From a virus: a DNA stretch of 41,824 nt. A program made the translations under genes and the position numbers. Below, one piece after another: positions 3,627-18,012 of the stretch. The DNA lies in the IMG/VR virus record IMGVR_UViG_3300033571_003641, positions 1 through 41,824 of that record. One strand, given 5' to 3'. Under the pieces are notes generated by a model. It was not told the DNA's origin. It did not search any database and saw only the letters and a program-made list of their open reading frames with translations. Position 1 is the stretch's first letter, and each line of letters begins with the position of its first letter.

Positions 3627-3639
3627 CTTAGTTCTCCAT

Positions 3640-3846
3640 TCAAGCTGCAAGACGAATAATGTCCCGTTTGGTTTTAGCGTTCTTTATCCGAATCGCTTCC
3701 TTACCCCTAGCGACTTCCCAAGCGCGAGATATGCACTTGCCCCAAGTCCAGCCAAGGCCAAGCCTCTTTGACATGCGCCATTGCCGGTGAGCATCACGCA
3801 TCACCGCGCGCCTGTCGTATTTAGGTTTAATCGTAATTTTCCTCAT
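3640..3846 (-). CDS. Small basic hypothetical protein, 68 aa
   Basis: The protein is rich in Arg and Lys (YDRRAVMRDAHRQWRMSKR) with a Trp-rich centre (GWTWGKCISRAWEVARGKEA). From memory, this aromatic W-x6-AW-x-A pattern recurs in small phage early proteins of unknown role. The high charge suggests nucleic-acid binding. The start lies inside the end of the upstream gene (20-nt overlap), using GAGG-like codons there for ribosome loading. Confidence 0.65.
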   Translation of the reverse strand: MRKITIKPKYDRRAVMRDAHRQWRMSKRLGLGWTWGKCISRAWEVARGKEAIRIKNAKTKRDIIRLAA

Positions 3847-4141: not shown

Positions 4142-4164
4142 AGCGGATCTCCATTCCGAATACG

Positions 4165-4205: not shown

Positions 4206-4223
4206 CTTGACAATTTGTCAGAT
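4205..4223 (+). promoter_or_regulatory. Inverted-repeat operator upstream of the repressor-like gene (site C)
   Basis: GCTTGACA-ATT-TGTCAGAT matches the repeated early operator. TTGACA at 4207-4212 could be a -35, but no good -10 follows at 16 or 17 bp (CGTAAG at 16). The rightward promoter is therefore weak or depends on an activator. The site lies 20 nt before the repressor-like gene, a typical autoregulatory position. Confidence 0.55.
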
Positions 4224-4661: not shown

Positions 4662-5053
4662 TTAAGCGCAGACAGGTGGAATCCGGTATTCAGCGCGGTA
4701 TTGTCCAATACATCCGTTCGGTGCTGCCAAGGGCTGTTCTTATGGCGATTCCTAACGGATCTCAGCGCACTGCCTCTGGACGTCCCGCTAACGCTGTTCC
4801 GGGTTTCTTGCCGGGCGCTCCTGATTTGATATTGGCTTTGCCTAACAAGGAGGTGATCTGGATAGAGGTAAAATCACCTATTGGACGCTTAAGTGATAAT
4901 CAGAAACACGTTCACGCCATGCTTGAAACGATAGGACATAAGATCATCTTGGCGCGTTCGATTGACGATATTCGTGAGGCGTTTGCGTATTACGGCATAA
5001 AAACGAAGGATAGCTGGAATGGAGAACCTAGCGATGGCGAAAGACGCGATTAA
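4655..5053 (+). CDS. VRR-NUC domain nuclease, 132 aa
   Basis: The PD-(D/E)XK-type VRR-NUC domain is complete: PNG at 33-35, GAPDLILALP with Asp 57, then VIWIEVKSP with Glu 71 and Lys 73, and LSDNQK with Gln 83. Stand-alone phage VRR-NUC proteins are structure-specific nucleases thought to resolve branched DNA or recombination junctions. The GTG start at 4655 overlaps the upstream stop, with GGGAA before it. The C-terminal end overlaps the GcrA-like gene by 20 nt. Confidence 0.88.
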   Translation: MVIKRRQVESGIQRGIVQYIRSVLPRAVLMAIPNGSQRTASGRPANAVPGFLPGAPDLILALPNKEVIWIEVKSPIGRLSDNQKHVHAMLETIGHKIILARSIDDIREAFAYYGIKTKDSWNGEPSDGERRD

Positions 5054-5627
5054 GTGGCAGCCCGAATGGGTTGAACACGCGAAGAAGATATTGGCTGCCG
5101 GTGGCACGATGGGAGAAGCGGCCAACGGAATCAACCACAAGTTTGGCGTCGGGATCACCCGTAACGCCATGATTGGCAAACTGCACAGGCTCAAGGCTGA
5201 GAACAAATTAAATCTCCCGCCGCCTGAGCAATGGAAGAATAAGTCCATGGAGACTTTTGTTAGCTATTGGCATAGCGGCATATCCAGCACGGACATTGGC
5301 CATTACTTTGGTGTTGAGAGCAGCACAATTCGTGACAAAGCGTATAAATATGGTTTGACGCCTAGAGGCACTGAGACTGGCTGGCGCGCTCTTAAAAAGA
5401 ATGTTCCCAAGACGCCAAAAGTCCAGTCTGACGGTATTAGCAAGCAGACTACGTTTCCAAACCCGGATGCTAAAGCTGTGCTATTTGAAAATTTAACTAG
5501 CCGCATGTGTCGGTTCGTTATAGGTGATAAACCTTTCTATTTTTGTGGTGCCGAAGTCGAACTTGGTTCGCCCATCCCTTACTGCTCTTATTGCAGAAAA
5601 GTGATGTATGTGCCTGCGAAGCGTTAG
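5034..5627 (+). CDS. gcrA: GcrA-like cell-cycle regulator with two HTH segments, 197 aa
   Basis: Residues 8-53 match the GcrA N-terminal HTH (KWQPEWVEHAKKILAAGG, then GVGITRNAMIGKLHRL). Residues 158-192 match its sigma-70-interacting C-terminus (SRMCRFVIGDKPFYFCG, then PYCSYCRKVMY). Between them, at 74-110, lies a second HTH-like repeat (FVSYWHSGISSTDIGHYFG). In Caulobacter, GcrA binds RNA polymerase sigma-70 and stimulates promoters carrying methylated GANTC sites. The start at 5034 follows the GAATGGAG motif; the ATG at 5019 belongs to that motif. It is followed directly by a DnaA-like gene. A role in redirecting host transcription is inference. Confidence 0.88.
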   Translation: MAKDAIKWQPEWVEHAKKILAAGGTMGEAANGINHKFGVGITRNAMIGKLHRLKAENKLNLPPPEQWKNKSMETFVSYWHSGISSTDIGHYFGVESSTIRDKAYKYGLTPRGTETGWRALKKNVPKTPKVQSDGISKQTTFPNPDAKAVLFENLTSRMCRFVIGDKPFYFCGAEVELGSPIPYCSYCRKVMYVPAKR

Positions 5628-7849: not shown

Positions 7850-7889
7850 TATAAAAGATCACTACAACTGCGTTTGAATGGAGAAAGCA

Positions 7890-9449
7890 ATGCAGTTACG
7901 CGATTACCAAGCGGAAGCTATAAATAATCTTAGAGAAGCCATAACTCGCAAAGAAAAGCCTGTTCTGTCTGCGCCCACAGGATCAGGTAAAACGCTTATT
8001 GCGTCTGAAATATTTTCTATGGCTAGGGCCAAAGAAAAGCGTGTTGTGTTTGTCGTTCCGTTTCTGTCGTTGATCAATCAAACATGGAAGGCGTTTGAGC
8101 GCGCCGGTATTGATGGCCGTGAAATGGGAATCATACAGGGGGATCACCAGCTTACGGATTACAGGAAGCCTGTCCAGATTGCCTCTGCTCAGACTTTGGA
8201 GCGTCGTCCAGTTCTTCCTAAGGCTGACATTGTTATTTTTGATGAGTGCCACATCAATCGTAAGATTTATCAGCGTTGGATGAATGAAGCCCCTGATGTG
8301 TATTTCATAGGATTGTCCGCTACGCCTTGGGCTGTTGGCATGGATAACCTGTGGACACAGATGATCATTGTGTCGACGTTGAGTGAGCTTATTCAGAAGG
8401 GGCATTTGTCGCCGTTTAAGTATTTTGCCCCGGCCCAACCTGATCTGTCTAAGGTTCGTGTTCGACTTGGCGACTATGTCGAATCAGATCTTGAGAAGGT
8501 TATGGGTAGCTCTGATCTCATTGCTGACATCGTGAATACATGGCGTGAAAAGGCTGAAAGCCGTCCTACATTTTGCTTTTGCGTAAACCGCCGCCACGCC
8601 CAAGAAGTTCAGGCGCAGTTCTTATTGGCTGGTGTCCCGGCTGGATATGTTGACGCCAATACGCCTGTGGATGAGCGTGAGGCTCTGGTTGAGCAGCTTC
8701 GCCGTGGTGATCTGAGCGTCATCTGCAATATCGGAACGATGACGACTGGCGTTGATGCGCCTTTCGTGTCGTGCATCATTCTGGCTAGGCCCACCAAATC
8801 TGAGATGCTTTATATCCAGATCATTGGCCGTGGGTTACGGACTGATGCGGCCTCTGGGAAATCGGATTGCTTGATTCTGGATCACTCAAGCACAGCCCTG
8901 AACCTTGGCCGCCCGGATGAGATTTATTACGAGACGTTTCGATCCGGCAAAGAGGCCAAGGCCGGGGACAAAAGGAAAAAGGATAAAGAGGAGAAAAAGC
9001 CGAAGCTTTGCCCTCATTGTAAATTTGTCCTGCTCCCCAAGGAAAACGACTGCCCTTCCTGCGGCTTTGTATTCCCGCCGCCTGTCAGTGATGTTGAGGT
9101 TGGCGCTGGGGAGTTGACTGAACTTGGCCACGCTGGCGTTAGGGGTAAGGCTAAGAAGGATGAGAAGCAGTCTTTTTATTCTGGGCTGCTCTGGATTGCC
9201 AATGACAGGGGCTACAGTAAGGGCTGGGCGGCCCACAAATACAAAGCCAAGTTTGGTGTGTGGCCCCGGCTTCTTGACGAAACGCCTGCCTTCCCTGATG
9301 CTTTAGTCTTTAATTATGTGAAGTTCAGCAACATCGCTTGGGCCAAGTCCAAGAATAACCCGAATAATTCGGCTAAACAGACGCTGTCTACCGAATCAAT
9401 CCGTAACCGGATACGCAATCAATTCTCCCATGGGAGGGATCATGGCTAG
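7890..9449 (+). CDS. SF2 DEAD/DEAH-box helicase with zinc ribbon, 519 aa
   Basis: RecA-like domain 1 has the Q-like LRDYQ motif (3-7), Walker A SAPTGSGKT (27-35), DECH (118-121) and SATP (143-146). Domain 2 contains NRRHAQEVQ, GTMTTGVDAP and the motif VI region QIIGRGLRTD. A zinc ribbon (CPHC-x10-CPSC) follows near 374-391, then a C-terminal module for DNA or partner binding. This is the phage DEAD-like replication helicase type that unwinds DNA. The start at 7890 follows GAATGGAG; the ATG at 7878 is part of that motif. It may partner the PD-(D/E)XK protein upstream. Confidence 0.93.
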   Translation: MQLRDYQAEAINNLREAITRKEKPVLSAPTGSGKTLIASEIFSMARAKEKRVVFVVPFLSLINQTWKAFERAGIDGREMGIIQGDHQLTDYRKPVQIASAQTLERRPVLPKADIVIFDECHINRKIYQRWMNEAPDVYFIGLSATPWAVGMDNLWTQMIIVSTLSELIQKGHLSPFKYFAPAQPDLSKVRVRLGDYVESDLEKVMGSSDLIADIVNTWREKAESRPTFCFCVNRRHAQEVQAQFLLAGVPAGYVDANTPVDEREALVEQLRRGDLSVICNIGTMTTGVDAPFVSCIILARPTKSEMLYIQIIGRGLRTDAASGKSDCLILDHSSTALNLGRPDEIYYETFRSGKEAKAGDKRKKDKEEKKPKLCPHCKFVLLPKENDCPSCGFVFPPPVSDVEVGAGELTELGHAGVRGKAKKDEKQSFYSGLLWIANDRGYSKGWAAHKYKAKFGVWPRLLDETPAFPDALVFNYVKFSNIAWAKSKNNPNNSAKQTLSTESIRNRIRNQFSHGRDHG

Positions 9450-9972
9450 GGCTGGCAGGAAGCGTAAAGAAGGTGATCGTTATCCCGGTGGCCAGATCCG
9501 CCCGGCAGAGGAAGGGCCGTCGCCGTCCGCCATAAAGCGCCTTCGCAACGCTGCGATACTTGGCATGGCTGATCCTCAGTGGGGTAGCGTGGCTGGGCTT
9601 TGCTACCTTCAAAGGATGATTGACGATATTGAGTATGAAGCCGCTAAGAGGTTTGGGGATCTCCATGCCCAATACATCGGGGTAATTGGCGGCCCCCGTC
9701 AGCCCAAGACATCTACCGGGGAGCGCCCTACGCGGGCTACTGAGGTGGACGTTGATACGGAACAGGGTGATCGGGAGGCCAAACGCCACATCGCCGTTAT
9801 GACGCGCTATAACGACGCACATACGGCATTGCTTATGGTTAGCCCTGTCACTGAAGCTGATCTGATTCGGTTTTGCGCTATGCCGGGCGAATCACCGAAT
9901 GGATATGAGGGCATGGTTCGTGTCCGCACTGGCCTTCGTGCGTTGGCTACCCTGTGGAAGATCACGAAATAA
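9442..9972 (+). CDS. Hypothetical protein with basic N-terminus, 176 aa
   Basis: The start at 9442 has GGGAGGG 4 nt upstream and overlaps the helicase end by 8 nt. The product opens MARAGRKRKEGDRYPGGQI, a basic segment I associate with uncharacterised alphaproteobacterial phage and prophage proteins. A helical, charged body follows with DREAKRHIAVMTRYNDAHTA near the middle. No catalytic motif was found. It ends immediately before a terminator for the opposite strand. Confidence 0.75.
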   Translation: MARAGRKRKEGDRYPGGQIRPAEEGPSPSAIKRLRNAAILGMADPQWGSVAGLCYLQRMIDDIEYEAAKRFGDLHAQYIGVIGGPRQPKTSTGERPTRATEVDVDTEQGDREAKRHIAVMTRYNDAHTALLMVSPVTEADLIRFCAMPGESPNGYEGMVRVRTGLRALATLWKITK

Positions 9973-9995
9973 AAAAAGCCCCGCCGAAGCGGGGC
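9971..9995 (-). terminator. Leftward intrinsic terminator with UUCG tetraloop
   Basis: Read on the minus strand, GCCCCGC-TTCG-GCGGGGC is followed by seven T (9977-9971). This gives a 7-bp GC stem closed by a C(UUCG)G loop with a U-tract. It would stop transcripts from the leftward genes at 10783-10182. It has no U-tract in the rightward direction. Confidence 0.85.
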
Positions 9996-10045
9996 AATAC
10001 CAAGGGAGGAAAATCAATCCTCTCACAATATTTAAATTCAGTCAA

Positions 10046-10074
10046 ATTTGACTAAGTGTCAGACAGATTATAGT
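10046..10074 (+). promoter_or_regulatory. Rightward promoter with operator (site D) for the candidate small RNA
   Basis: TTGACT (10048-10053), 15-bp spacer, TATAGT (10069-10074). The -35 and spacer overlap an inverted repeat at 10046-10064 (ATTTGACT-AAG-TGTCAGAC), a copy of the early operator family. No gene starts within the next 100 nt on this strand; an intrinsic terminator follows instead. Confidence 0.5.
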
Positions 10075-10079
10075 TAGGA

Positions 10080-10182
10080 AACAGAACCCATCTGGTTCTC
10101 CTTTCTAACTTATTCGCCGGTTCCCTATCCCGGCGATATGCCCCGCCAGCGTCATCTCCATTCCGCTGGTGGGGCCTTTTTT
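10080..10182 (+). ncRNA. Candidate small RNA with Shine-Dalgarno-complementary loop
   Basis: The stretch starts about 6 nt after TATAGT and ends in a T-run. It folds into three hairpins: 10083-10099 (AGAACC/GGTTCT), 10114-10136 (TCGCCGG/CCGGCGA, 9-nt loop) and the terminator 10140-10175. No open frame with a ribosome site was found on this strand. The terminator loop TCATCTCCATTC and the linker TCTCCTTTC are complementary to Shine-Dalgarno sequences. The loop matches the GAATGGAGAT motif that precedes many phage genes. This suggests an antisense regulator of phage (or host) translation. Confidence 0.5.
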
Positions 10183-10183
10183 T
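10140..10183 (+). terminator. Rightward intrinsic terminator
   Basis: A 12-bp stem (10140-10151 with 10164-10175, one G-U pair) encloses the 12-nt loop TCATCTCCATTC and is followed by seven T (10177-10183). It ends rightward transcription of the 4243-9972 block and of the candidate small RNA. Its tail overlaps the stop codon of the convergent leftward gene. Confidence 0.85.
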
Positions 10184-10783: not shown

Positions 10784-10897
10784 TTTCTGTCTCCATTCTG
10801 GTGTCTCCCCGGCGCTACGCTACCCGCGCTGTCGGCATTCCGGCTGTTGGCCCGCGCGAACCGTGGCCTTCTCAGGGAGTGAGGCACAATCACTTTT

Positions 10898-11376: not shown

Positions 11377-11405
11377 CAAATCATCAAAGTGAATGGAGAA
11401 TCACG

Positions 11406-11672
11406 ATGAAATCTGAACTTGCTGATCGTTACGCCGCCCTGAAAATTGAACTGGAAGCGGCTCAGGCTGCTCTGGATGCGGTTAAGGCTGAAATCATCGC
11501 TACTGGCTGCGATATTCTGGAAGGCGATGACTTCCGGGTTAACGTGGGCCTTCAGGAGCGCACGACTATATCGGCCAAAGAAGCTGAGAAGGTTCTGCCC
11601 CCGGAACTGTATGGCGTCCTCGCCAAGACGACGATGTTCCCTGCTGTTCGCTATAAAGCCATCAAGGCTTGA
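11406..11672 (+). CDS. Hypothetical phage protein, 88 aa
   Basis: The N-terminal half is a long helix (RYAALKIELEAAQAALDAVK). The C-terminal half is beta-rich with LEGDDFRVNVGLQERTTISA. From memory this two-part layout recurs in short phage proteins of unknown role. GAATGGAG lies 7 nt before the start. It is the first gene of the rightward unit from promoter F. Confidence 0.75.
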   Translation: MKSELADRYAALKIELEAAQAALDAVKAEIIATGCDILEGDDFRVNVGLQERTTISAKEAEKVLPPELYGVLAKTTMFPAVRYKAIKA

Positions 11673-17911: not shown

Positions 17912-18012
17912 GGGAAGGTGGCGAAACGGTAGTCGCGGCCAAGACGTTGGCTGATCTCTGCCAAATACTAGATAGGCATGTCGTGCAGGTTCGAATCCTG
18001 CCCTTCCCACCA
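17912..18012 (+). tRNA. Class II tRNA-like gene (Leu-like) with aberrant anticodon arm
   Basis: It has a perfect 7-bp acceptor stem (GGGAAGG/CCTTCCC), discriminator A and encoded CCA. The D-arm (GCGA/TCGC with GGTAG loop) and the T-arm (GCAGG-TTCGAAT-CCTGC) are canonical, and a long variable region follows. The D-arm and A73 resemble tRNA-Leu. The anticodon hairpin GCCAA-GACG-TTGGC has only a 4-nt loop with a 5-bp stem (or 6 nt with a 4-bp stem). No anticodon can be assigned. The total of 101 nt is long for class II. Confidence 0.75.

Follow-up and report, generated by a model that had tools for sequence, protein, structure and literature searches.

The window analyzed here, a viral contig of 41.8 kb (41,824 nucleotides (nt); IMG/VR record IMGVR_UViG_3300033571_003641), appears to encode at 10080–10183, on the plus strand, a non-coding small RNA (sRNA) of approximately 100 nt, the terminator loop of which is complementary to the ribosome-binding site (RBS) word of the phage's own early genes. 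An sRNA with a loop directed against RBSs has good support, both from its persistence in three relatives and from the RBS word that matches it, and we put at roughly 70% the probability that the phage encodes a trans-acting anti-RBS RNA of this kind, one that reduces translation from some eight early genes. According to the proposed mechanism, a non-coding RNA would be made from 10080–10183 and end at its own intrinsic terminator, and the unpaired CUCCAUUC of the terminator loop, aided by GGUUCUCCUUU after hairpin 1, would pair with GAAUGGAG and GGAGAAC-type RBSs on several early messenger RNAs (mRNAs) of the same phage. Ribosome loading would be blocked at the paired RBSs, and one RNA would thereby turn down several genes together. 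Transcription, pairing in the cell, repression, and timing are what we infer beyond the sequence evidence proper.

A conserved candidate RNA with proposed anti-RBS segments

The stretch is free of genes and forms three hairpins, the third of which is an intrinsic terminator; its limits are drawn from conservation and structure, with a presumed 5′ end. These features had been described in an earlier sequence-only reading of the window, and direct reading of the sequence together with folding bears out all of them. The RNA is found at the same place in three other viral contigs, G012 (IMGVR 3300046009_002641), G001 (3300017747_001659), and G002 (3300042549_002778), where it is about 96%, 96%, and 79% identical to that of the window, while the four-fold degenerate sites of neighboring genes are 41–57% identical in all three, near saturation. 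The terminator stem, the loop core CTCCATTC, and the linker segment GGTTCTCCTTT are invariant across the four phages.

Hairpin 1 (AGAACC/GGTTCT, 10083–10099) varies in loop sequence and is kept in all four single folds. It is followed by the linker TCTCCTTTC (10097–10105), which had been put forward as anti-Shine-Dalgarno as a whole; its first three letters are predicted to be paired in hairpin 1, with CCTTTC open. GGTTCTCCTTT (10094–10104), the 3′ arm of hairpin 1 plus the open linker, is complementary to AAAGGAGAACC-type RBSs. Hairpin 2 (10114–10136) is a predicted fold that carries a G-C to G-U difference in G012 and G001. The terminator hairpin (10140–10175) has a stem of 12 pairs, one of them G-U (10140–10151/10164–10175), and precedes a U-tract (10177–10183) that overlaps the stop codon of the convergent gene. 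Its 12-nt loop TCATCTCCATTC (10152–10163) has GAATGGAGATGA as its exact reverse complement, as the earlier reading had stated, and the core CTCCATTC (10156–10163) is the proposed seed. Partition-function folding leaves the loop and the linker CCTTTC mostly unpaired. The loop of G002 is TAGCTCCATTC, with TAG instead of TCAT in its 5′ part, so that the flank has changed and the core is kept; this is the opposite of a stem that persists in relatives after the loop has been lost, the outcome named beforehand as damaging to the idea. In G001, an opposed gene replaces the upstream flank, and the RNA and its promoter-like sequence are retained, which points to a self-contained unit.

The same conservation bears on the alternative offered by the earlier reading, namely that the loop is a relic of a gene that once started here in the leftward direction. 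GAATGGAGATG can indeed be read on the minus strand, with a frame of 15 codons; yet its GGAG abuts the ATG without spacing, the frame is not conserved, being broken by indels and by the different loop in the relatives, and conservation of the region far exceeds that of synonymous sites. Given this conservation, including the RNA and promoter-like sequence kept beside the replaced flank of G001, a relic is highly improbable and is rejected. Another minus-strand open reading frame, following GGAG-6-ATG in the complement of hairpin 1, was also discarded; by eye, it spans 5 codons in the window and 9–12 in the relatives.

The RBS word and its proposed targets

The eight-letter word GAATGGAG occurs 11 times in the window against 1.39 expected, a count reached in none of 100 shuffles. 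Eight copies lie 6–9 nt before an ATG, one is provided by the loop's complement, and the other two are located elsewhere. The word marks 8 of the 33 GGAG-type RBSs and 3 of the 221 other GGAGs (Fisher 4e-6). The eight genes are those listed in the earlier reading (148, 1023, 3626, 4141, 5034, 7890, 10783, and 11406), and each does carry the word at this distance, ambiguously so for 5034 and 7890. On the minus strand, the proposed target sites are 156–163 for the gene starting at 148, 1030–1037 for gene 1023–709, 3634–3641 for gene 3626–3384, 4149–4156 for gene 4141–3827, and 10791–10798 for gene 10783–10583. The site of gene 4141–3827, CGGAATGGAGAT, offers 12 nt of complementarity, and its GAATGGAG is kept in G001, G002, and G012. 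On the plus strand, the sites are 5017–5024 for a GcrA-like gene (start at 5034 or 5019), with the linker-matching GGAGAACC coming after it; 7876–7883 at the helicase start, either as the RBS for 7890 or as the start codon at 7878; and 11391–11398 for gene 11406–11672. Genes seen in one phage only bear the word too (87 amino acids (aa) in G001, 251 aa in G002). Thus, a predicted unpaired and conserved seed is complementary to the translation starts of several unlinked genes, as would be expected of a trans-acting sRNA.

The tail of 16S rRNA pairs with AAGGAGGU-type sequence, and GAAT does not pair with it. GAAT precedes 8/33, 9/31, 8/34, and 7/32 GGAG-type RBSs in the four RNA-bearing phages (32/130) and 0/117 in four relatives without this RNA, counts that are not independent, as the phages are related. 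Since pairing with the 16S tail leaves GAAT unexplained, the RNA loop is its simplest explanation. GGAGAAC, which matches the linker, is weakly enriched, with nominal significance in G001, G002, and G012 and none in the window. In an unbiased scan that ranks 30-nt windows by their preference for binding RBSs over gene interiors, the RNA linker comes 4th and the best of the terminator-loop windows 33rd among 13,676.

These results also weigh on two other explanations. One holds that the RNA is real and that host mRNAs are its main targets through general anti-Shine-Dalgarno interference, with the phage matches secondary; CUCC motifs would be expected to pair with any GGAG, but generic pairing accounts neither for the extra GAAT in the phage RBSs nor for the invariant AUUC of the loop, and we regard this as unlikely. 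The other, somewhat less likely still, takes the stretch for nothing more than the 3′ end of the rightward operon (helicase and a 176-aa gene), untranslated region and terminator included, with no regulatory role and a coincidental loop match. The hairpin is indeed a good terminator in the right place, with convergent genes coming next. A bare terminator, however, does not call for loop core, linker, and stem sequence to stay invariant when divergence is near saturation, an exact match to the phage's commonest RBS word in the loop would be an improbable coincidence, and the opposed gene between operon and RNA in G001 means that the RNA there probably needs its own promoter.

As to scope, GAATGGAG is borne by only about a quarter of the GGAG-type genes, which argues for a regulon rather than a global shut-off of translation. 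The latter is rejected. Of the earlier reading, the sRNA with an anti-RBS loop is well supported, the shutdown of early translation is conjectural, and control by an operator is not general.

Promoter-like and operator-like sequences

Upstream of the RNA lies a promoter-like sequence (10048–10076, plus strand), TTGACT-15-TATAGT or 17-TAGTTA with TGTCAGA in the spacer, of the same class as the promoters of genes 148 and 1023. It is conserved in the relatives and reads TTGACT-15-TATAAA in G001 despite the unrelated upstream flank. The promoter claimed earlier (10048–10074) is weaker than it was made out to be. The promoter-like sequence of the RNA and the promoters of the proposed target genes 148 and 1023 have in common the element TTGAC[AT]NNNTGT[CA]AGA, to which the early operator of the earlier reading corresponds, and this sharing, in the window and G012, suggests that the RNA could be made together with its targets and act as a brake. 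The element occurs at 197 and 1080 on the minus strand and at 4207 and 10048 on the plus strand, all four positions being intergenic.

The palindrome AGTCAAATTTGACT (10040–10053), operator-like in sequence, overlaps the −35 box. At the sRNA, GTCAAATTTGAC is present in the window and G012 only and is absent in G001 and G002; with two of four phages lacking the operator-like element there, the operator control supposed earlier may apply to the window and G012 and is not general.

Several points weigh against a trans-acting anti-RBS RNA. The promoter-like sequence has unusual spacing and is not called by a consensus scan at 16–18 nt spacing. No two-sided pair changes occur in the RNA stems across the four copies, so the structure is not backed by covariation, and the pairing draws its backing only from thermodynamics and one-sided G-C to G-U differences. 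The RNA is held by four phages only, three copies being nearly identical. At genes 5034 and 7890, the ATG inside GAATGGAG is an in-frame alternative start, which makes these sites ambiguous, and the helicase starts at this ATG in G001 and G012. Finally, GAATGGAG could have another role.

A covariance model search found with confidence only the four known copies, no record in the GenBank phage collection is similar at the DNA level, and a protein search of bacterial genomes found no relative. A single bacterial match by terminator pattern reads as coding DNA and is ascribed to chance, and the viral matches L018–L021, L023–L025, and L061–L067 likewise look like chance.

A different candidate RNA in a more distant relative

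In G013 (3300046002_003616), which has 53% identity in the 176-aa protein, the covariance model detects no homologous RNA. A different structure closed by a terminator, with CCUCCC in its loop and with UUUGUCUCUUCAUAGAC, stands right after the 176-aa gene (L055 4545–4640), and G014 contains the same structure (L053). The commonest RBS word of G013 is GGAGAGAC(AAA), with the AGAC ending at 6/21 GGAG-type RBSs and 0/242 other GGAGs. The structure is complementary to G013's own RBS word GGAGAGACAAA and ranks 6th of 11,526 for RBS binding; one target is predicted to pair across 17 bases in a row (one G-U) together with flanks, at −29 to −31 kcal/mol. An inverted duplication of that target's gene start could also yield such a match, and the pair is accordingly treated as suggestive of an RNA matched to its own RBS word. 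Given the two pairs, GAATGGAG with CUCCAUUC in the window and GGAGAGACAAA with UUUGUCUCUUC in G013, it may be speculated that every phage lineage of this group uses an RBS word of its own, matched by an anti-RBS RNA encoded at the same position. Such a translational code could be swapped, would coordinate the early genes of its phage, and might serve as RNA-based immunity against related superinfecting phages; as a whole, we consider this reading doubtful.

Relation to known regulatory RNAs

As an anti-RBS RNA, the candidate may be likened in function to LhrC (PMC4132741), NfeR1 (PMC10746234), and the c4 RNA of P1 (PMC12197685). The LhrC sRNAs of Listeria are bacterial, multicopy, and stress-induced, whereas the present RNA is phage-encoded and directed at a phage-specific RBS word; the CUCCC motif of LhrC is not in it (CUCCUUU stands in the linker and CUCCAUUC in the loop), and the analogy is functional only (PMC4132741). 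The NfeR1 or αr14 "cuckoo" RNAs of alphaproteobacteria share with it three hairpins and unpaired anti-Shine-Dalgarno seeds, but they are chromosomal and have an ultraconserved CCUCCUCCC seed, which is absent from 10080–10183, placing the RNA outside that family (PMC10746234). Rfam returns no family at gathering score, weaker matches in the region being far below theirs.

Among phage RNAs, the c4 RNA of P1/P7 and the sar RNA of P22 keep a phage gene from being translated, which c4 does through loops that pair close to the RBS, and OOP RNA of lambdoid phages is likewise a short phage RNA with its own promoter, promoter-like in the window (PMC12197685). OOP is cis-antisense to one gene (cII), unlike the window RNA, and c4 has one described target (ant), compared with about eight candidate targets and one common word here. 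Known translation-blocking phage RNAs mostly have one target, and within the literature, covered incompletely, no phage RNA targeting a shared, phage-specific RBS word was found. The notable part is the pairing of a phage-specific RBS word with the phage's own matching RNA. If true, one RNA set against an extended RBS word on about eight unrelated early genes would amount to a regulon that a phage runs at the post-transcriptional level, and the word–RNA pairs of different phages would offer a direct way to study the co-evolution of such a code.

Genomic setting

Helicase, ERF, and exonuclease genes in the window mark the early region. The GcrA-like gene (5034–5627; cell-cycle regulator, PF07750) suggests an alphaproteobacterial host. 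The candidate RNA sits between two convergent units, a rightward operon with the helicase (7878/7890–9449) and the 176-aa gene (9442–9972) as its last members and a leftward set of small genes from 10783 to 10182. The terminators of the two are crossed, the leftward one (9977–9995) lying past the sRNA gene and the rightward one at 10140–10183.

Because of this arrangement, leftward mRNAs would be complementary to the RNA over its whole length and might serve as its sponge. One could go further and place the function on the minus strand, where the leftward operon's 3′ untranslated region, which bears GAATGGAG and AAAGGAGAACC, would lure away an anti-RBS RNA of the host or of a phage. Leftward mRNAs should span the stretch, as their terminator lies beyond it, and the minus strand folds about equally well. 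Against such a decoy, the U-tract and the promoter lie on the plus strand, and pairing at the invariant G-U of the terminator stem, as at the G-C to G-U difference in hairpin 2, is preserved on the plus strand only, which makes it very unlikely.

The region differs in gene content between relatives. In G001 (L002 6120–6440), a further leftward gene, inserted between the 176-aa gene and the sRNA, comes with a promoter-like sequence of its own and a GAATGGAG RBS. In G002 (L003 5560–6790), an additional gene of 405 aa, likewise with a GAATGGAG RBS, is inserted between the helicase and the 176-aa gene, and its product reads like a DNA cytosine methylase. Elsewhere in the window, at 17912–18012, ARAGORN lists an odd tRNA whose anticodon has four bases (ggct).
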